Part shown: piece by piece, positions 3,931 to 12,939 of the stretch | How positions within the stretch are numbered: the first letter of the stretch is position 1 | Layout: every line of letters begins with the position of its first letter | Source of the DNA: Synoicihabitans lomoniglobus | GTDB taxonomy: Bacteria > Verrucomicrobiota > Verrucomicrobiia > Opitutales > Opitutaceae | Reading direction: 5' to 3' | DNA length: 64,000 bases | NCBI RefSeq assembly: GCF_029023725.1 | Contig: NZ_CP119075.1 | Location: 1,235,501 to 1,299,500, forward strand | The notes under the pieces: model-generated | What the model was told of the DNA's origin: nothing | The model's input: the letters and a program-made list of their open reading frames with translations, nothing else | Database searches by the model: none | Made by a program: the position numbers and the translations under genes

Positions 3931-5057
3931 GTAAGTTCGTGATCGCATGCGGCGGGACCGGCGGTCACCTCGCGCCGGGAGTGGCGTTGGCGGAGCGGCT
4001 GCGGGATCGCGGCCACGAAACCCTGTTGCTGATATCGGAGAAGCAGATCGACCGGCAGCTCACGGCGAAGTATCCGAATTTTCGATTCAGCCGGATTCCG
4101 GGCGCGCCGTTGATCATGACGCCGACGGGGTTGTTGGGTTTTGCGCTGCATCAAACCCGGGGGCTGCTGTTCTCAATCCGGTTGGTGCGGCATGAGCGAC
4201 CGGACATGATTGTAGGTTTCGGAGGATTCACGACCGCCGCCATCATCGTGGCCGGGTGGATGATGCGGGTGCCGGTGGCATTGCACGAAGCCAATCGCGT
4301 GCCGGGTCGCGCGGTGCGAGCTTTGGCCCGGTTTGCGCGACGCGTCTATTTGCCGCGCGAAGTGACGCTGGAAGAAGTCAATCATGAGAAACTGCGTCAC
4401 GCCGGATTGCCGGTGCGACAGGAAATCATGCGCCTGCCGCGTCCGGACGGCGCGGAACATTTCGGACTCGATCCCAACAAGATTACCGTGGCCGTGCTCG
4501 GGGGAAGCCAGGGGGCCCGGGCTCTGAATACGTGGGCGGAAAAAAGTGCGCCATTGCTCGCCGCCAACGGGGTGCAGATGCTGGTGGTGACCGGGCCGGG
4601 CAAGAGCGAAGGTCGGGTTGATGCGTTCAAGGGACCGAACGGTGAGACGATCAAGTCGGTCTCGATTCCGTTTTGTGATCGTATGGCCGAGCTGTTTTCC
4701 GCCAGCGATCTGGTGGTGTCCCGATCCGGCGCCGGCACGATTGCCGAACTGGTGGCGTGCGGTGTGCCCGCGGTGTTGGTGCCGTATCCCACCGCTGCGG
4801 ACAATCACCAGGCGGCCAACGCCGCCGAGTTTGCGCATCAGGGCGGGGGCATCATGGTCGAGGAAAGTGACATCGATCAGCTGCAAGGCGTGGTGGAGCA
4901 GTTGGTGGCGGATGAAGAGCGGCGATCCGAGTTACGCGCCAATATTTCCCGCATGAACATGGCGAGCACGCTCGATCTCATGTTTGAAGACATGGAAAAT
5001 CTGGCTTCACCGCCGCGCCACGATTCGTCGTCACCGACCCAATTAGCGCGCTCATGA
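3927..5057 (+). CDS. murG: MurG, lipid I GlcNAc transferase
   Basis: MurG adds GlcNAc to lipid I at the inner face of the membrane, making lipid II. The 376-residue protein opens with the family glycine loop CGGTGGHLAPG (~8-18), continues with VGFGGF, LHEANRVPGRA, GGSQGA, and the donor-binding SRSGAGTIAEL followed by PYPTAADNHQ. The start is GTG at 3927, overlapping the ftsW stop by 4 bases, with a purine-rich ribosome site (ggaggagg, 3912-3919). The open frame extends far upstream inside ftsW, but nothing there resembles MurG. Its stop overlaps the next start (ATGA), so translation is probably coupled. Confidence 0.97.
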   Translation: MSKFVIACGGTGGHLAPGVALAERLRDRGHETLLLISEKQIDRQLTAKYPNFRFSRIPGAPLIMTPTGLLGFALHQTRGLLFSIRLVRHERPDMIVGFGGFTTAAIIVAGWMMRVPVALHEANRVPGRAVRALARFARRVYLPREVTLEEVNHEKLRHAGLPVRQEIMRLPRPDGAEHFGLDPNKITVAVLGGSQGARALNTWAEKSAPLLAANGVQMLVVTGPGKSEGRVDAFKGPNGETIKSVSIPFCDRMAELFSASDLVVSRSGAGTIAELVACGVPAVLVPYPTAADNHQAANAAEFAHQGGGIMVEESDIDQLQGVVEQLVADEERRSELRANISRMNMASTLDLMFEDMENLASPPRHDSSSPTQLARS

Positions 5058-7396
5058 AAGACGACGCGACTCCTTTGCTCAAAGGCCGGACCGTGCGCCA
5101 CATCCATGCCGTGGGCGTGGGCGGAATGGGGCTCGGGCCGTTGGCCATTTATCTGGCCCGACGCGGGTGGACGGTGAGCGGCGAGGACGACCATCTGAAT
5201 CCGGGCATGGCCGCGCAGCTTACCCGCGCCGGAGTGGAGCTCGAATCGAGCGGTAAACTGCCCGCGGAGACCGACCTGCTGGTTTATTCCGCCGCCATCT
5301 CCCCGGAACATGCCACGCGTCAAGCAGCGCGAACGGCCGAAATCCCCAGTATGCGGCGGGGGGAACTGTTGGCGGCGGTGGCCCGGGAGCGTCGACTGGT
5401 CGGGGTGTGCGGTTCGCACGGCAAGACCACGGTGACGGCCATGTTGGTCAGCGCGTTGCGGACGGCGGGCTGGGATGTGAGTTATGTGCTGGGTGGCTTG
5501 TGGGGAAACGACGCGTGGGCACCGGCGGCCGTGGGAGAAAGTGAATGGTTGGTGGCCGAAATCGACGAGAGTGACGGCACCATCGCCCATTTCGCCCCCG
5601 CATTTACGTTGGTCGTCAATCTGGATTGGGATCATGCCGATCATTACACGGAACAACGGACGCTCGAAGCGGCGTTTGCCGGTTTGATGGCGCGAACCAC
5701 GGAAGTCGTGATGGGTTCCGACGCCTGCGCCACCACGATGCGTCTGTTTGCGAGCAAGCCGTCATCGGCGCGGATGGTGACCTTTGGTCGCACGGGCGAA
5801 TTTCAGATGATTGAAGCCACGGTCCAGGGCGGCAGCTTGGAGTTGGCGTGGGCCGGTGCGTTTGCCATCTCAGCTCAAACGGTTGCGGCCCGGGGGGAAT
5901 TCAACGCGCTGAACGCCAGTGGGGCGGTCGCGGCGGCGCAGCTGATGGGGGCGCCGTTGAACGCAAATCTGCTGGCGGATTTTCCGGGCGTGCGTCGGCG
6001 GCAGACCGTGCTGCGGCACGGTCATGATCTGACGGTGATTGAAGACTATGCGCATCACCCCGCCGAGATTCGGGCGCTCTTGCACAGCTTGCGCCGGGAC
6101 CTGGTGGAAGGGGAGCGTCTGGTGGTGGTCTTTCAGCCGCATCGATTCAGTCGCACCCGGCAGTTCAAGGCCGAGTTTGCGGCGGCTCTGGGGGTGGCTG
6201 ATTCCCTGCATTTGCTCGATGTTTACGCGGCCGGCGAAGCACCCCTGACCGGCGGCACGACCGCTGATCTGTATGCCGAGCTCATGCGGCTTTCGCCGCG
6301 CCTGCCGGTGAACTACCTGCCGGGGGATGCGGCCGGCGTATTGGAATTGTTAAGACAATCACGTCGCCCGGGTGACTGCGTGGTTTTTGTCGGCGCGGGT
6401 GACATCGAATTGCGAGCGCGGGAGTGGCTGGCGGTGTTGGACGACGAAGCCGCCCGCGTCGAACAATGGGACCAATTGGCGGCGGAATTGCGCGCGGTGG
6501 TTTCAGCCGCGGGCAAGGTGGCGCGGGAGGAACCCTTGGCGAACAAGACGACGCTGCGGGTGGGGGGCGCGGCCCGGGTGTATGTGGAGCCGGCCGACGC
6601 CGCCGAATTGCAGGAAGTCGTGCGGCGGGTGCATGCGCGGGGGCTGCCGCTGCGGATGTTGGGACGGGGCTCGAATCTGTTGGTGCCCGATGCGGGGGTG
6701 GACGGCGTGGTGGTTTCGCTGCGACGGGCGGGGTGGGAAACCTTCACGCCGTTGGAGGACGGGCGGGTGCGCGTGGGGGCCGGGTTGCGGTTGAAAAATC
6801 TTTGCGGTCTCGCGGCCAAGGCGGGATTGCAGGGGTTCGAATTTTTGGAAGGCATTCCCGGCAATTTGGGCGGCGCTCTACGCATGAACGCCGGCGCCAT
6901 GGGCGGCTGGATGTTCGACGTGGTGGACGCATTGGAACTGCTGACATTGGCCGGAGAGCGCATGACATTGCGGCGCGACGAACTGCACGTCGGTTACCGG
7001 CATTGTCGGGAACTGGAGCAGGCCATCGCGATCGGCGCGGTGTTGCGGCCGGCCACCGTAAGTGAGGCGACGAAAATCAGCCGCCAAATCGATGTTTACC
7101 GCAGCAAGCGGCAAGAGTCCCAACCGCGGGAGCCGAGTGCGGGATGTATTTTCAAGAATCCGGGCGACGATTCGGCGGGACGGTTGATCGATATGTGTGG
7201 GTTGAAAGGCGAACGCATCGGCGACGCCGAAGTATCCACGGTGCATGGGAATTTCATCATCAACCGCGGCCATGCCACCAGTGCGGAAGTCATCGAACTC
7301 GTCCGGCGGGTGCGGGCGGAGGTGCAGCGTCAGACCGGCACGGAACTTCAGCCCGAAGTGCTGCTCTACGGCAGCGAGTGGGAGGACGTGTTGTGA
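5054..7396 (+). CDS. murC-murB: MurC-MurB fusion: UDP-MurNAc-L-Ala ligase plus UDP-MurNAc dehydrogenase
   Basis: One 780-residue frame encodes two successive cytoplasmic steps. Residues ~1-455 are MurC: Rossmann start with GVGGMG (~21-26), P-loop GSHGKTT (~120-126), an EIDESDG segment and the C-terminal EDYAHHPAEI. Residues ~475-780 are MurB, which reduces UDP-GlcNAc-enolpyruvate with NADPH and FAD: NKTTLRVGGAA, GRGSNLLVPD, EFLEGIPGNLGG, and a C-terminal IDMCGLKG. The MurB half looks like the short (type II) form. Where E. coli MurB has its catalytic Ser (AGSFFKNP), this protein has Cys698 (AGCIFKNP), an exchange I believe is seen in other MurBs. ATG at 5054 overlaps murG by 4 bases and the stop overlaps ddl by 4. 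Confidence 0.95.
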   Translation: MKDDATPLLKGRTVRHIHAVGVGGMGLGPLAIYLARRGWTVSGEDDHLNPGMAAQLTRAGVELESSGKLPAETDLLVYSAAISPEHATRQAARTAEIPSMRRGELLAAVARERRLVGVCGSHGKTTVTAMLVSALRTAGWDVSYVLGGLWGNDAWAPAAVGESEWLVAEIDESDGTIAHFAPAFTLVVNLDWDHADHYTEQRTLEAAFAGLMARTTEVVMGSDACATTMRLFASKPSSARMVTFGRTGEFQMIEATVQGGSLELAWAGAFAISAQTVAARGEFNALNASGAVAAAQLMGAPLNANLLADFPGVRRRQTVLRHGHDLTVIEDYAHHPAEIRALLHSLRRDLVEGERLVVVFQPHRFSRTRQFKAEFAAALGVADSLHLLDVYAAGEAPLTGGTTADLYAELMRLSPRLPVNYLPGDAAGVLELLRQSRRPGDCVVFVGAGDIELRAREWLAVLDDEAARVEQWDQLAAELRAVVSAAGKVAREEPLANKTTLRVGGAARVYVEPADAAELQEVVRRVHARGLPLRMLGRGSNLLVPDAGVDGVVVSLRRAGWETFTPLEDGRVRVGAGLRLKNLCGLAAKAGLQGFEFLEGIPGNLGGALRMNAGAMGGWMFDVVDALELLTLAGERMTLRRDELHVGYRHCRELEQAIAIGAVLRPATVSEATKISRQIDVYRSKRQESQPREPSAGCIFKNPGDDSAGRLIDMCGLKGERIGDAEVSTVHGNFIINRGHATSAEVIELVRRVRAEVQRQTGTELQPEVLLYGSEWEDVL

Positions 7397-8343
7397 AGGC
7401 GGATTTGAACACCCCTCGCATCGTGGTGTTGGCCGGGGGCACGTCGCCGGAGCGCGAGGTTTCGTTGGGATCGGGCAAAGCCTGCGCCATCGCGTTGGCG
7501 CGGCTATTCCCGACCGTATTCATCGATGTCACCGTCGAAGCGGTGCCGCCGGGAATCGATCCGCGACGGGATGTGGTGTTCTCCACCTTGCACGGCACGT
7601 TTGGTGAAGACGGCGCCATGCAGCAGCTCCTGGACGATGCGGGAATCAGTTACGCCGGGTGTGACCGTATCAGTAGTGAACTTACGTTCGACAAGGAACG
7701 CACCAAGCGCGCCGTGGCGGCGGCGGGTGGGGTGGTTCCGGCCGGAGTTTCTTTCACCGGGGACCGCAAGCCGAATTGCGCCGAGCTGATCAGGGCGTTG
7801 GGCGGAGGCATCGTTTTTAAGCCGAAGTGCGGTGGCAGCAGCGTGGGGCTGGCGATTTGTCACGGAGTGGAGGCGATCGACACCAAACTTAACAATATCA
7901 CCAGCGGGGATTGGTTGGCGGAGCAATGCATCACGGGGCGCGAAGTCACGGTGGGCATCCTCCATGGCCGGGCGTTGCCCGTGGTGGAGATCGTGCCGAG
8001 GTCGGGGGTTTTCGACTACCAATCCAAGTATACCAAGGGTTTGACGGAGTATCTGGCGCCGGCGCCGTTGTCGTCGGAAATGACGCGCGAACTGCAAGAA
8101 TCCGCGGAACGAGCGTTCGCCGTCTGCGGGTGTCGGGACTATGCTCGTATTGATTTTATGATTACGGCGAAAAACGAGTGCTTTTTGCTCGAAATCAACA
8201 CGCTTCCCGGCATGAAAGAAACGAGTCTTTTGCCGATGGGAGCAAAGTGTGCAGGAGTGGATTTTACGGCGCTGGTTGGAGAACTGGTGAAGTCCGCCTG
8301 TGAACGTTTTTCAAACCATCGAAAATTGGCAACCGAGGCATGA
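7393..8343 (+). CDS. ddl: D-alanine--D-alanine ligase
   Basis: Ddl makes the D-Ala-D-Ala dipeptide later added by MurF. This ATP-grasp protein of 316 residues begins IVVLAGGTSPEREVSL, has STLHGTFGEDGAMQQLLD and the ATP-grasp lid and metal-site region ending LEINTLPGMKETSLLP. The start is GTG at 7393, overlapping the murB stop (GTGA); the open frame continues upstream inside murB but without family similarity. The stop overlaps the ftsQ ATG by 4 bases. The murC-murB-ddl-ftsQ order matches dcw clusters generally. Confidence 0.96.
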   Translation: MKADLNTPRIVVLAGGTSPEREVSLGSGKACAIALARLFPTVFIDVTVEAVPPGIDPRRDVVFSTLHGTFGEDGAMQQLLDDAGISYAGCDRISSELTFDKERTKRAVAAAGGVVPAGVSFTGDRKPNCAELIRALGGGIVFKPKCGGSSVGLAICHGVEAIDTKLNNITSGDWLAEQCITGREVTVGILHGRALPVVEIVPRSGVFDYQSKYTKGLTEYLAPAPLSSEMTRELQESAERAFAVCGCRDYARIDFMITAKNECFLLEINTLPGMKETSLLPMGAKCAGVDFTALVGELVKSACERFSNHRKLATEA

Positions 8344-9296
8344 GCGATTCACCCACCACCACTCCCACGGCGCGCAGTTGGCGCGATATCCCGCAGCAGA
8401 TCACGCCGCGGGCCATGTCGCGTGAAGGTCGTCGGCGACTGACCGCACGCACCCTGCGCAACATCGCGCTCGTCGTGACGGGCGTCAGTCTGGCGTGCGG
8501 CAGTTGGCTGGTCTGGAATGTATTGCAGGACGACCCCAACCGCTGGGCCGCCGCCGCCAACAGTCGTCCGGTGGAACACATCGTGGTCGAGACCGATGGG
8601 GTGCTGGACCAGGCATGGGTGGAGGCGACGCTGCAGATTCCGCGGGACGTCGGTTTGATGGAACTCGACCTGTATGCGCTGCGCGAACGATTGCTGGCGC
8701 ACCGGCAGGTCAAGTCCGCGGTGTTGAAGCGGGAGTATCCGGACACGCTGCGCGTGGTGTTGGAAGAACGCACCGCCGTGGTAAAACTCAAAGCCCAATT
8801 AGCGGGCGCGGAGTTGAGAGACTTTCTCGTGGCCCGTGACGGCACGGTTTTTGCCGGCCACGGGTCTTTGGCGCAGGAGCAAACGGACCTGCCGTGGTTG
8901 GCCGGAGTGCGACTGGTTCCCGCCGGGGACGGATTTGAACCGTTGGGGCACATCGACCGGTTGGCGGATCTGCTCGCGACGGCGCGCACCGATGCGCCGC
9001 TGCTTTACGCGGATTGGCGGATTGTTTCACTCGAGCATATTGCCCGCGATGGGCACATCGTGGTGCGTTCCGCCCGGGTTCCCGAGATCATCTTTGGCTT
9101 ACGGGAAGACTTCTATACGCAGATCGCACGACTCGACTACATTTTGGACGAGATTCGCGGCCGGGCCGTAGCGCCCATGCGATCGATCAACTTGGCGATC
9201 GGGCCCGCTCAAGTGCCGGTCGCCATGGATCTTCCCCCGCCTGTCAGCGGTGCCGACCGCGGCGTCCCTTCCGTTCGATTCCCCCTCCACAATTGA
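8340..9296 (+). CDS. ftsQ: FtsQ/DivIB-type cell division protein
   Basis: FtsQ is a single-pass divisome protein linking early cytoplasmic parts to periplasmic ones. The 318-residue product has a basic cytoplasmic tail (~1-40), one membrane helix (~40-62), then a POTRA-like domain (VEHIVVETDGVLDQAWVE on to RVVLEERTAVV, ~78-150) and a beta domain reaching ~300. Sequence similarity is weak, as is usual for FtsQ; the identification relies on topology, the POTRA-like segment and the position between ddl and ftsA. ATG overlaps the ddl stop (ATGA). Confidence 0.88.
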   Translation: MSDSPTTTPTARSWRDIPQQITPRAMSREGRRRLTARTLRNIALVVTGVSLACGSWLVWNVLQDDPNRWAAAANSRPVEHIVVETDGVLDQAWVEATLQIPRDVGLMELDLYALRERLLAHRQVKSAVLKREYPDTLRVVLEERTAVVKLKAQLAGAELRDFLVARDGTVFAGHGSLAQEQTDLPWLAGVRLVPAGDGFEPLGHIDRLADLLATARTDAPLLYADWRIVSLEHIARDGHIVVRSARVPEIIFGLREDFYTQIARLDYILDEIRGRAVAPMRSINLAIGPAQVPVAMDLPPPVSGADRGVPSVRFPLHN

Positions 9297-9309
9297 CCGT
9301 TTACCTATC

Positions 9310-10524
9310 GTGAGTTCCAAATCCCGCTTCATTGGTGCCGTCGAAATTGGCACATCCAAAGTTGCCGTTCTCATCGGTGAAATCGTCAACGGCAAGAGCA
9401 TCAATTTGATCGGCTTCGGCGAATGCCAGTCGCACGGGGTCATCAAGGGCGTCGTGACGGATTTCAAGGCGGCCAGTGATGCGGCGCACACGGCGCTGAT
9501 CACGGCGGAGCAGAGTGCCGGAGTGAAGATCGATGAAGTTTACCTGGCCCAGACCGGTGGTCATCTCGAAGGGTTCTACAATCAAGCCTCGGCGAGCGTG
9601 AGCGCGGCCGACAACACGGTGAGCCAACTCGACATCGATACGGTGTGTCGTCTCGCCAAAGCCAAGGCGCTGCCCGAAGGCCGCATGGTGGTGCATCACA
9701 TCCGACGTCCGTTTCAATTGGACGGCAAAATGGTGGGCACGAATCCCGAGCACTTGAATGGCAAGCGACTCGAGGTCGGTTACTGGACCGTGCACGGGCA
9801 GGAAGCCCAGATCGCCAACAGCATCCATGTGATTCGTGGTTTTGACGTGCGCGTGGGTGACATGATTTTGTCGAGTCTCGGCGCGGGAACCATGGTGACG
9901 ACGCTGCAGGATCGGCAGCACGGGGTGCTCGTGCTCGATATCGGCGCCGGCACCACGGACTATGTGCTCTACCGCGATGGCAGTCCCTTCATGACCGGGG
10001 TGCTGCCGGTCGGCGGCACGCACATCACCAACGACCTCACGCTGGGTCTGCGGGTGACGGAGAGTCAGGCCGAGAAACTGAAGATTCGCCACGGCCGCGC
10101 GAATCAGATCACGCGTGAGAAGAGCGATCGCGTGTGGCTGAACGGCGACTTCGCCATCGGTGACCGTCAGTTCCCGCGGCAGACGATCGAGATGATTACG
10201 TCGGCACGCGTTTGGGAACTGCTTGAAATCGTGAAAAAGAAACTCGGCGCTGCGCTCAATCCCGAGCACTGCCCGGTCGGCGTCGTGCTTACTGGTGGCA
10301 CGTCGAAGCTTCCCGGCATCGCGGAGACGGCGGCAAAAGTCTTCGATCTCCCGGCCCAACTGGGAGAGTTGCCGCCGGGGGTGGATGAAAAACTTCAGGA
10401 TCCGTCGCACACCGCGGTGTTGGGTCTGTTGCACTTCGGCTTGCAAGGTCGCGCGGACGGACCCGCGACCCGTCGGACCAAACCGGGCGGACTGTTCCGC
10501 AAACTCTTCACGGTCGGATCCTGA
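9310..10524 (+). CDS. ftsA: FtsA, actin-like divisome protein
   Basis: FtsA is the actin-fold ATPase that tethers FtsZ to the membrane. The product shows GAVEIGTSKVAVLIGE (phosphate 1), a VLDIGAGTTDYVLYRDG phosphate-2 loop, VLTGGTSKLPG (adenosine site), and a C-terminal amphipathic stretch GLFRKLFTVG, the expected membrane-targeting helix. I chose GTG at 9310 (404 residues) because the family homology begins within ten residues of it and it avoids a 47-base overlap with ftsQ. An ATG at 9250 in the same frame would add 20 non-conserved residues. Neither start has a clear ribosome site. Confidence 0.95.
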   Translation: MSSKSRFIGAVEIGTSKVAVLIGEIVNGKSINLIGFGECQSHGVIKGVVTDFKAASDAAHTALITAEQSAGVKIDEVYLAQTGGHLEGFYNQASASVSAADNTVSQLDIDTVCRLAKAKALPEGRMVVHHIRRPFQLDGKMVGTNPEHLNGKRLEVGYWTVHGQEAQIANSIHVIRGFDVRVGDMILSSLGAGTMVTTLQDRQHGVLVLDIGAGTTDYVLYRDGSPFMTGVLPVGGTHITNDLTLGLRVTESQAEKLKIRHGRANQITREKSDRVWLNGDFAIGDRQFPRQTIEMITSARVWELLEIVKKKLGAALNPEHCPVGVVLTGGTSKLPGIAETAAKVFDLPAQLGELPPGVDEKLQDPSHTAVLGLLHFGLQGRADGPATRRTKPGGLFRKLFTVGS

Positions 10525-10534
10525 CCTCCACGCC

Positions 10535-11830
10535 ATGAACGCCAACGAACTTCCCCTTACGCCTTCCGCGGACGCGCTCGCCGACCGTGATGTCTCGATC
10601 AAAGTCATTGGGTTGGGGGGCGCCGGCGGCAACGCGGTCGACCGGCTCAAAATGGACAATCTCGATCGCCTGCGATTGGCTGCGATCAACACCGACCTGC
10701 AGGCGCTCAACGCCTCTCCGGTGGAGGAAAAGGTGCTTATCGGTTCGGCCGTGACGCGCGGACTGGGCGCGGGAGGCGATCCGGACTTGGGATACGAAGC
10801 CGCGGAATCGGATCGGGAAAAAATCGCGGAAGTGGTGCGCGATACGGATTTGGTTTTTCTCATCGCCGGCATGGGCGGGGGCACCGGTAGTGGCGCGGCG
10901 CCCACAGTGGCGGAGATTGCCATCGAAGCCGGCGCGCTGGTCATCGCGTTTGTCACCACGCCGTTCAGTTTCGAAGGTGGTCGGCGCACGAAACAAGCCG
11001 AGGACGGATTGTTGGCCCTGCGCCGCAGCTGCGACGCGGTGATTCCGTTGCCCAACGACATTTTGCTGCAGGAAGCCGCAGAAGGCGAAACGGCCCTCGA
11101 TTCGTTTGCCCGGGCGGATGAGTGGATCGGTCGAGCGGTGCGATCGGTTTGGGCGATGATGTATCGCACCGGTCTCATCAATCTGGACTTCGCCACGTTG
11201 CGGCAGGCGTTTCACACGCGGGGCGGGAAAACCCTGTTCGGTCTCGGCAGTGGCTCCGGCGAGACCTCGACGGCCGACGCCATCGCCAGTCTCGAGATGT
11301 GCCCGCTCCTGGCGACGCCGGAGTTTTCGCGCAAGGCCGATCGACTCCTGGTCAATATCGTGGGAGGAACCGATCTCACGCTGGCCAAGGTGAATGAAAT
11401 CATGAGTGCGGTGACCGAACGCTACGGTCGTGAATCGCATGTCATCATGGGGGCGGTCATCGACGAAGACCTGCAGGGGAGCGTGGAAATATGTGTGATC
11501 GGGACCAGCGATATTGGGGGCCGTCTGCCGCCGCGCCGTCCGGTGCCGGTGCGAGCGAAACAGGCCGCCGGCGCGCCACCCACGCCGCCGGAACCCATGC
11601 GGTCGGCCGGGGCCGAGCCGGAGGAAGTGCTGGCGGGCAAACCGTCCGCCCCAACGCGAGCGGCGGTGAAGCCCAAGCCCTCGAACGATCCGACGGCGCA
11701 GAACGAATTCTTCTTTCAAACCTTGGCCGAAAATCGCGGTCACTTTGAGCGCACCGATCGGAATCTGTTCGAGGGGCAGGATCTGGATGTGCCGACCTAC
11801 TTTCGTAAAGGTCTGAAAATCAGCCTCTAA
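10535..11830 (+). CDS. ftsZ: FtsZ, tubulin-like GTPase of the Z ring
   Basis: FtsZ polymerises into the Z ring. The 431-residue protein has the N-terminal IKVIGLGGAGGNAV, NTDLQAL, the GTP signature GMGGGTGSGAAP (~112-123), the C-terminal domain to ~325, a Pro/Ala-rich linker (~330-395) and a C-terminal tail DVPTYFRKGLKISL that fits the conserved FtsA-binding peptide. In the T7 loop, E. coli has NVDFAD with catalytic Asp209 and Asp212; here it is N216-L-D218-F-A-T221, so the second Asp is Thr. ATG at 10535 is 10 bases after ftsA. The frame is open upstream inside ftsA but only as a shadow. Confidence 0.97.
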   Translation: MNANELPLTPSADALADRDVSIKVIGLGGAGGNAVDRLKMDNLDRLRLAAINTDLQALNASPVEEKVLIGSAVTRGLGAGGDPDLGYEAAESDREKIAEVVRDTDLVFLIAGMGGGTGSGAAPTVAEIAIEAGALVIAFVTTPFSFEGGRRTKQAEDGLLALRRSCDAVIPLPNDILLQEAAEGETALDSFARADEWIGRAVRSVWAMMYRTGLINLDFATLRQAFHTRGGKTLFGLGSGSGETSTADAIASLEMCPLLATPEFSRKADRLLVNIVGGTDLTLAKVNEIMSAVTERYGRESHVIMGAVIDEDLQGSVEICVIGTSDIGGRLPPRRPVPVRAKQAAGAPPTPPEPMRSAGAEPEEVLAGKPSAPTRAAVKPKPSNDPTAQNEFFFQTLAENRGHFERTDRNLFEGQDLDVPTYFRKGLKISL

Positions 11831-11894: not shown

Positions 11895-11916
11895 TTGAAT
11901 GTGCACGATCGGCGGC

Positions 11917-12939
11917 ATGTTTATCGATGAATGCGTGATCAAAGCTGCAGCAGGCGACGGAGGTCGGGGCTGTATCAGTTTTCGGCGCGAAAAATTTGAA
12001 CCCTTCGGCGGACCCAACGGCGGTGATGGCGGCAAAGGCGGCGACGTCGTGCTGCGCGGGGACGACAACACCAACAACCTGATCGACTATAAATACAAAC
12101 CGCATTGGCGCGGCGAGCGAGGCGAGCACGGTTTGGGCAAGGATTGCAACGGGCGCGAAGGCAAACCCGCGATCCTGCGCGTTCCTCTGGGCACGATTGT
12201 GACCGATGAGGAAACGGGGCAAGTCGTGGCCGAAGTCATCACGCACGGTCAGGATGTCGTCCTGCGCAAAGGGGGCAACGGCGGTTGGGGAAACACCCAT
12301 TTCAAGTCATCGGTCAATCGTGCGCCGCGCCGCGCCAACCCGGGCGACGAGGGTGAAACGGGCGTCTATCGGCTCGTGTTGAAGAGTATCGCCGATGTGG
12401 GACTCGTGGGGTTTCCCAACGCGGGAAAGTCCTCGCTCACCACCCGCATCACGCAGGCGCGTCCCCGCACCGCGGCTTATCCGTTCACCACGCTGCATCC
12501 GCAGATCGGCGTGATTCACTACCCCGATGAATACGATCGTCTGCTGTTGGCGGACGTGCCGGGATTGATTGAGGGGGCCAGTGACAATCGCGGCCTGGGC
12601 CATCGTTTTCTCCGTCACATCGAGCGCTGCGCCGTCCTGATGTTCATGATTGATATGGCCGCGGTCGACGGGCGCGATCCCCGTGACGACTACGCCACTT
12701 TGCTGGGCGAACTCGAAGCCTATGACGCCAAGTTGATGGACAAGCCCCGCGTGGTGGTGGCCAACAAAATGGACCTGCCGGAAGCGAAGGCCTGGCTGAC
12801 GAAGTTCAAGCGTCGGCACAAAGTCGAAGTCGTGCCCATTTCGTGCGAGTCCGGTGATGGATTGGACCAGTTGAAAACCACGTTGCGCGATCGGGTGCGT
12901 GCTCCGGCCGCGGCCGCCGACACGGCCAGCGCGACTTGA
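11917..12939 (+). CDS. obgE: Obg/CgtA ribosome-associated GTPase
   Basis: Obg GTPases assist large-subunit assembly and link it to growth state. The protein starts with the glycine-rich Obg fold (MFIDECVIKAAAGDGGRG, SFRREKFEPFGGPNGG, to ~155), then the G domain: G1 GFPNAGKSS, a YPFTTLHP switch, G3 DVPGLIEGA, G4 NKMDL and a G5-like region. There is no long C-terminal extension. I chose ATG 11917 because Obg proteins begin MF(I/V)D; an ATG at 11899 (6 residues longer) is preceded by a better purine-rich site (gggg) and cannot be excluded. It follows ftsZ by under 90 bases. Confidence 0.95.
   Translation: MFIDECVIKAAAGDGGRGCISFRREKFEPFGGPNGGDGGKGGDVVLRGDDNTNNLIDYKYKPHWRGERGEHGLGKDCNGREGKPAILRVPLGTIVTDEETGQVVAEVITHGQDVVLRKGGNGGWGNTHFKSSVNRAPRRANPGDEGETGVYRLVLKSIADVGLVGFPNAGKSSLTTRITQARPRTAAYPFTTLHPQIGVIHYPDEYDRLLLADVPGLIEGASDNRGLGHRFLRHIERCAVLMFMIDMAAVDGRDPRDDYATLLGELEAYDAKLMDKPRVVVANKMDLPEAKAWLTKFKRRHKVEVVPISCESGDGLDQLKTTLRDRVRAPAAAADTASAT

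Follow-up and report, generated by a model that had tools for sequence, protein, structure and literature searches.

A single-aspartate T7 loop in the division protein FtsZ of Synoicihabitans lomoniglobus and the loss of T7 aspartates across sampled Verrucomicrobiota

With NLDFAT as its T7 loop, the FtsZ of Synoicihabitans lomoniglobus carries Thr221 in place of the second of two aspartates that are described as conserved catalytic residues and whose changes are crippling in model bacteria (PMC8936486, PMC7320174, PMC5405962; these and all other papers are cited here from parts of their text). In the phylum Verrucomicrobiota, as sampled, an intact two-aspartate loop is the exception: 177 of 201 FtsZ loci lack at least one of the two acids, and 196 keep at least one. 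On balance, we lean towards a working FtsZ that uses one T7 carboxylate (Asp218) together with Arg151, and whose GTP turnover is probably slower or differently tuned. The gene lies in a stretch of 64,000 nucleotides of contig NZ_CP119075.1 (positions 1,235,501 to 1,299,500 of the forward strand), hereafter the window, from whose first letter all coordinates are counted (Table 1).

Table 1. The ftsZ gene of the window, its neighbours and the active-site features of its product
Feature	Position	Strand	Basis or remark
murC-murB fusion gene	5054-7396		Upstream of the POTRA/FtsQ-type gene
POTRA/FtsQ-type gene	8340-9296		Upstream of ftsA
ftsA	9250..10524	+	TIGR01174, 290.1 bits against a cut-off of 175.85; directly upstream of ftsZ
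ftsZ, 431 aa	10535..11830	+	Translation, TIGR00065, PF00091, PF12327, structure model
T2 residues N52-T-D54-L-Q56 (S. aureus N44, D46, Q48)	10688..10702	+	
T3 loop G76-G86 (GLGAGGDPDLG)	10760..10792	+	Gly81 and Asp82 in the phylum-wide T3 signature
T4 GTP-binding motif GMGGGTGSG	10868..10894	+	Ser119 where controls carry Thr
Arg151 (S. aureus R143), catalytic-site Arg on the nucleotide side	10985..10987	+	Arg in 55/55 Opitutaceae loci
T7 loop N216-L-D218-F-A-T221	11180..11197	+	Codons aat ctg gac ttc gcc acg
Asp218, first T7 Asp, kept (S. aureus D210)	11186..11188	+	Asp in 55/55 Opitutaceae loci
Thr221, replacing the second catalytic Asp (B. subtilis/S. aureus D213)	11195..11197	+	Codon ACG
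C-terminal conserved peptide DVPTYFRKGL	11786..11815	+	Translation
Obg GTPase gene	11899-12939		Downstream of ftsZ

The protein scored above the curated threshold of TIGR00065 (309.5 bits against a cut-off of 295.2), and PF00091 (Tubulin/FtsZ GTPase, 144.5 bits) and PF12327 (FtsZ_C, 57.9 bits) were both over their cut-offs. In an AlphaFold model based on 26 aligned sequences, pLDDT values of the core, taken in blocks of ten, were mostly 80-97. The 50 PDB matches listed for this model are FtsZ entries with TM-scores on the target of 0.85-0.94, the first among them being S. aureus FtsZ (0.91, 40% identity), and the nearest named relative by FtsZ is Candidatus Synoicihabitans palmerolidicus (77% identity). 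A search of the whole genome, which is a single contig, returned this gene as the one FtsZ match, so that an additional FtsZ of the normal type can be rejected. As the sole match, set in a division and cell wall cluster beside ftsA, an FtsQ-type POTRA gene and murC-murB, the gene most likely encodes the division FtsZ and not a spare copy. The true start of ftsA may fall later within its frame. The murC-murB fusion has also been reported for Verrucomicrobium spinosum (PMC12283558). An open frame of 631 codons (9301-11196, minus strand) runs antisense to ftsA and ftsZ and is probably a by-product of base composition.

A first-pass annotation of the window had read the T7 loop as NLDFAT, with Thr for the second catalytic Asp. 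Codons and alignment agree with this reading: T221 falls on the last Asp of NLDFAD in B. subtilis and of NVDFAD in M. tuberculosis, with D218 on D210, N216 on N208, R151 on R143 and D54/Q56 on D46/Q48. We take E. coli D212 to be the same residue as D213 of B. subtilis and S. aureus. The annotation had also described the remaining GTP-binding motifs as normal, which holds for N52, D54, Q56, Gly80 and Arg151 but not for T4 (GGGTGSG) or T3 (GAG-G-D), since Ser119 of T4 stands where 115 of 116 control FtsZ have Thr, and Gly81 of T3 where 93 of 116 have Ala. The C-terminal peptide that it had reported was found in the translation and is presumably the contact with FtsA. The T2 residues are kept in Opitutaceae at 50 (N), 55 (D) and 46 (Q) of 55 loci. 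The T7 GTP hydrolysis motif has been given as NxDxx[D/E] and the GTP-binding signature as GGGTG[T/S]G (PMC12583498); the latter is present at residues 114-120 as GGGTGSG, and the former is incomplete, its last position being Thr. In the active site formed between two subunits, D210 was described as swinging so as to position the attacking water, while D213 and G72 hold their position and supply the environment; R143 is linked through a water to D213 and the gamma-phosphate, and S. aureus G72, the equivalent of Gly80 here, holds the precatalytic water (PMC8936486).

The alignment across Opitutales and other Verrucomicrobiota that had been proposed along with the first reading was carried out on 55 Opitutaceae loci (from 116 genomes with a match) and, for the remainder of the order, on 77 loci that represent 76 of its 123 matching genomes; 76 of these 77 loci have a residue at the T221 column. 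No Opitutaceae locus has an acid there (Thr 37, Ala 7, Ser 5, Gln 5, Gly 1). Elsewhere in the order, an acid occurs in 6 of 76 loci, and His, Met, Ile, Val and Asn are also found. One of the six, L167 (G185:C5:60407-61609), is a second FtsZ of the type that has lost the first Asp (GLINVGLDD), in an Opitutales genome that also has a Thr-type FtsZ (L046); its origin is transfer or contamination.

Beyond the order, 20 loci from the rest of the class and 20 from elsewhere in the phylum were picked among the matches listed, down to about E 3e-50, and a further phylum sample consisted of the best 30 TIGR00065 matches from a set of 50 chosen genomes, 46 of which gave a match. Because of these limits, both samples are weighted towards less diverged FtsZ. 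In the rest of the class it is the first Asp that was lost (18 of 20 loci, with Gly at this site in 13 of 20), the second site being Asp or Glu. Once a fragment (L182) had been set aside, the 201 phylum loci, from 69 families, divided into 144 with the first acid only, 28 with the second only, 24 with both and five with neither, all five having Asn at the first T7 site; the complete NxDxx[D/E] motif occurs in only 14. A separate set of 55 named loci, partly from the same genomes, comprised 54 with the first acid only and one fragment (L121). The 116 controls were drawn from two other phyla (each with 30 best and 20 weak-end matches) and from 16 named outgroup loci; both T7 acids are kept in 116/116, with Asp at the T221 column in every one. 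This figure covers main copies only, since the second control phylum also has additional FtsZ-like copies that score under the FtsZ cut-off and lie outside the sample; two of its genomes (G784, G795) each have three FtsZ-like copies, two of them below the cut-off. Set against these controls, the acid counts of Opitutaceae (0 of 55) and of the other Opitutales (6 of 76) at the T221 column are well beyond what chance would give.

To follow the history of the two sites, we built a tree from 216 FtsZ rows, namely the 201 phylum loci, 14 controls and the protein of the window, with the T7 columns removed; the search was quick and used a single model (LG+G4), and support is weak at several deep nodes. 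On this tree, the state changed 15 times at the first T7 site and 14 times at the second. All Opitutales rows except L167 form one clade (131 rows with the window protein, SH-aLRT 95), of which 122 have the first acid only, four neither, one the second only and four both. Loss of the second Asp thus looks ancestral to Opitutales, as judged from this distribution, and would date from the common ancestor of the order or from earlier. Three of the both-acid rows (L140, L147 and L148 of family f24, support 100) are nested in a 60-row group that otherwise has the first acid only (support 95), and are most readily interpreted as having regained Asp at the second site; the placement of the fourth, L154, is weakly supported. 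Seventeen rows from the rest of the class and L167 make up an 18-row clade (support 98), in which every member has the second acid only. Across Opitutaceae, every one of the four Thr codons is used for Thr221 (ACG 22, ACC 11, ACT 3, ACA 1), and dN/dS was 0.07-0.22 in five close pairs, defined by dS under 0.5 together with dN under 0.1; more distant pairs, many at 0.4-0.7, were set aside because we judged them to be distorted by saturation and base composition. The low ratios and the use of all four codons indicate a constrained gene in which Thr is old and has been kept through synonymous turnover.

Loss of both acids is rare, being seen in five of the 201 loci against 24.5 expected under independence. 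By family majority, it was found in 1 of 69 families (a tie in a two-row family) against 8.5 expected (Fisher p 1e-5), although Fisher tests ignore relatedness and common descent confounds this rarity. A pair test of mutual exclusion made on the tree, with 10 informative pairs, was not significant (median p 0.69). The pattern is as if one T7 carboxylate were needed and enough. Together with the retention of Asp218, Arg151, Gly80 and the T2 residues, the rarity of double loss is most simply explained if one carboxylate suffices and hydrolysis is slower or retuned. The active site between two subunits would then contain Asp218 as its single T7 carboxylate, the second Asp having presumably gone in or before the ancestor of Opitutales, where Thr, Ala, Ser, Gln, Met or other residues now stand. 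Asp218 would place the attacking water, Arg151 and a metal ion would stabilise the transition state, and hydrolysis would continue, though more slowly than in a two-aspartate FtsZ or with a different tuning, with filaments probably turning over more slowly. The lower or differently tuned GTPase, already suggested by the first-pass annotation, fits by analogy with what has been published on changes of this residue, D212G in E. coli and D213N in S. aureus. In S. aureus, D210N and D213N each suppress assembly (PMC8936486). The GTPase of E. coli D212G was almost tenfold down in one assay, with static vortices (PMC7320174), and under 1% in work cited by that paper, and the mutant complements an ftsZ null only when a suppressor is present (PMC5405962). 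With single mutants this severe in model FtsZ, the natural Verrucomicrobiota proteins must have other adaptations.

Among the alternatives, a sequencing or alignment error has a negligible probability: the genome is a single contig, no acid was seen in the 55 Opitutaceae loci, and adding 30 sequences and realigning left both T7 columns as before. Because the loss is common to the sampled members of Opitutaceae and Opitutales, Thr221 is no sequencing error, and a strain-specific error is ruled out; Asp in close relatives, which the first-pass annotation had named as refuting its reading, was seen in none of the Opitutaceae loci. We consider a full compensation, in which another residue, perhaps Asp82/Gly81 of the neighbouring T3 loop, restores a normal GTPase rate, to be quite unlikely. 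The T3 signature of Gly81 and an acidic residue 82 (10775-10780) adjoins Gly80, whose S. aureus equivalent holds the precatalytic water (PMC8936486), and it is frequent in FtsZ with the first acid only (Gly81 in 137 of 144, an acid at 82 in 132 of 144) as against controls (5/116 and 29%). It does not track the loss, however: Gly81 is equally found in 24 of 24 both-acid and 25 of 28 second-acid-only FtsZ of the phylum, and the acid at 82 amounts to about 90% in all three groups, with Asp82 itself in 22 of the 24 both-acid proteins. As a specific compensator the signature is therefore unsupported, and the compensating residue from the neighbouring subunit that the first-pass annotation had envisaged is reduced, for T3, to a permissive role at most. 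Since the signature also occurs where neither acid has been lost, it is a candidate permissive change that could predate the T7 losses, and is not a one-for-one replacement. No substitute acid is common at residues 214-232 besides 218, the most frequent being Glu224 (9 of 144 first-acid-only FtsZ), which speaks against compensation within T7/H8. The segment RGGKT, likewise considered, is unsupported as L140, with Asp at its second site, has it too.

It is also unlikely, in our view, that hydrolysis is essentially off, with T221 acting like Lys254 of beta-tubulin and GTP-bound filaments being turned over by partner proteins. We take the position of Lys254 to be equivalent to FtsZ D212/D213. This Lys gives a non-hydrolysing site, leaving the GTP of alpha-tubulin unhydrolysed (PMC13394414), in vitro treadmilling was abolished in E. 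coli D212G (PMC7320174), and the mixed chemistry at position 221 (T, A, S, Q and G in the family; H, M, I, V and N elsewhere in the order) is as if its role were lost. Yet none of the 55 Opitutaceae loci departs from Asp54, Arg151 or Asp218, which would be odd had hydrolysis gone. Neutral decay, with FtsZ losing importance in the phylum and its T7 loop drifting ahead of gene loss, appears very improbable. The repeated state changes at both T7 sites would agree with it, as would the absence of FtsZ from Planctomycetota and Chlamydiota (PMC12283558) and several reduced-genome Opitutales families in which neither an FtsZ match nor an FtsA match over the cut-off was found. The low dN/dS of the five close pairs and the single copy beside ftsA argue against decay, and ftsZ is essential in V. 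spinosum (PMC12283558), whose own T7 loop lies outside our sample.

Searches for a tubulin/FtsZ domain gave no match in 19 genomes. Fifteen of these belong to the Opitutales families f7 and f25-f28 and measure 0.8-1.0 Mb (G125, G143, G147, G152, G160, G161, G174, G177, G188, G190, G192, G201, G202, G211, G214); the remaining four are G136, G153, G194 and G195. In 12 of the 19, a very diverged FtsZ used as query gave no match either, and the same 12 had no FtsA match over a cut-off that the FtsA model passes in only 7 of 14 control genomes. Both ftsZ and ftsA are kept in two f26 genomes (G144, G231), and G219 has an FtsZ match with FtsA only below the cut-off. Reduced genomes thus look as if they had lost FtsZ and FtsA together, a reading tempered by these FtsA results and by a genome completeness that ranges from 68 to 98.

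Returning to the single-carboxylate FtsZ that we favour, the phylum provides many natural experiments on the coupling of GTP hydrolysis, treadmilling and division, since it has both kinds of single loss as well as an apparent natural return to Asp, the f24 trio being the natural counterpart to a T221D change. These proteins may also be relevant to the way in which the related Planctomycetota and Chlamydiota came to dispense with FtsZ. A wider scenario, which we put forward tentatively and think rather doubtful as a whole, is that Verrucomicrobiota mostly divide with a single-carboxylate FtsZ, the permissive T3 change having come before one or the other T7 Asp was dropped, depending on the lineage. 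GTP-driven treadmilling would then be slow or absent, a step towards the FtsZ-free division of the sister phyla and, apparently, of some reduced-genome Opitutales.

Verrucomicrobiota FtsZ have been placed among the most divergent (PMC9871819). The available text of PMC9871819 and PMC12283558 makes no use of the term "T7 loop", nor that of PMC1845146 of the word "loop", and the portions of PMC7203096, PMC4603965 and PMC9939409 in which statements on T7 or Opitutales were sought contained none on point. No report of T7 aspartate loss in Verrucomicrobiota was found among the matches listed in the full-text literature, a search with subscription papers mostly outside it. A bona fide FtsZ with a non-canonical active-site design at the level of a phylum appears new on this basis, although such a search is no proof of novelty.

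Compared with the canonical FtsZ of B. subtilis, S. aureus and E. coli, the window protein shares the fold, the GTP-binding loops, Arg151, the first T7 Asp, the gene neighbourhood and the C-terminal peptide; it differs in Thr for the second T7 Asp, in Gly81-Asp82 of T3 and Ser119 of T4, in Trp197 of H7 and in RGGKT at residues 229-233. The same T7 Asp is lost in E. coli D212G, the allele ftsZ2. Whereas D212G is a lone laboratory mutation that supports division only with a suppressor, the loss described here is natural, old and set in a different protein background. Beta-tubulin, too, has a non-acidic residue at this position of its T7 loop, Lys254 (PMC13394414), but tubulin is a heterodimer with a second, active interface, while the single FtsZ of the window organism must use this interface everywhere. 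Naturally low GTPase activity is tolerated by the FtsZ of Spiroplasma eriocheiris and Ca. Thiosymbion oneisti (PMC11987601, PMC8953583), in which the catalytic residues are described as conserved, whereas the window FtsZ has lost one. Within the phylum, the FtsZ of V. spinosum has been called "canonical", with a Ser noted in the tubulin signature (PMC1845146); in contrast, it is the first Asp that is missing from 18 of 20 FtsZ in the rest of the class, a sample to which V. spinosum itself does not belong.
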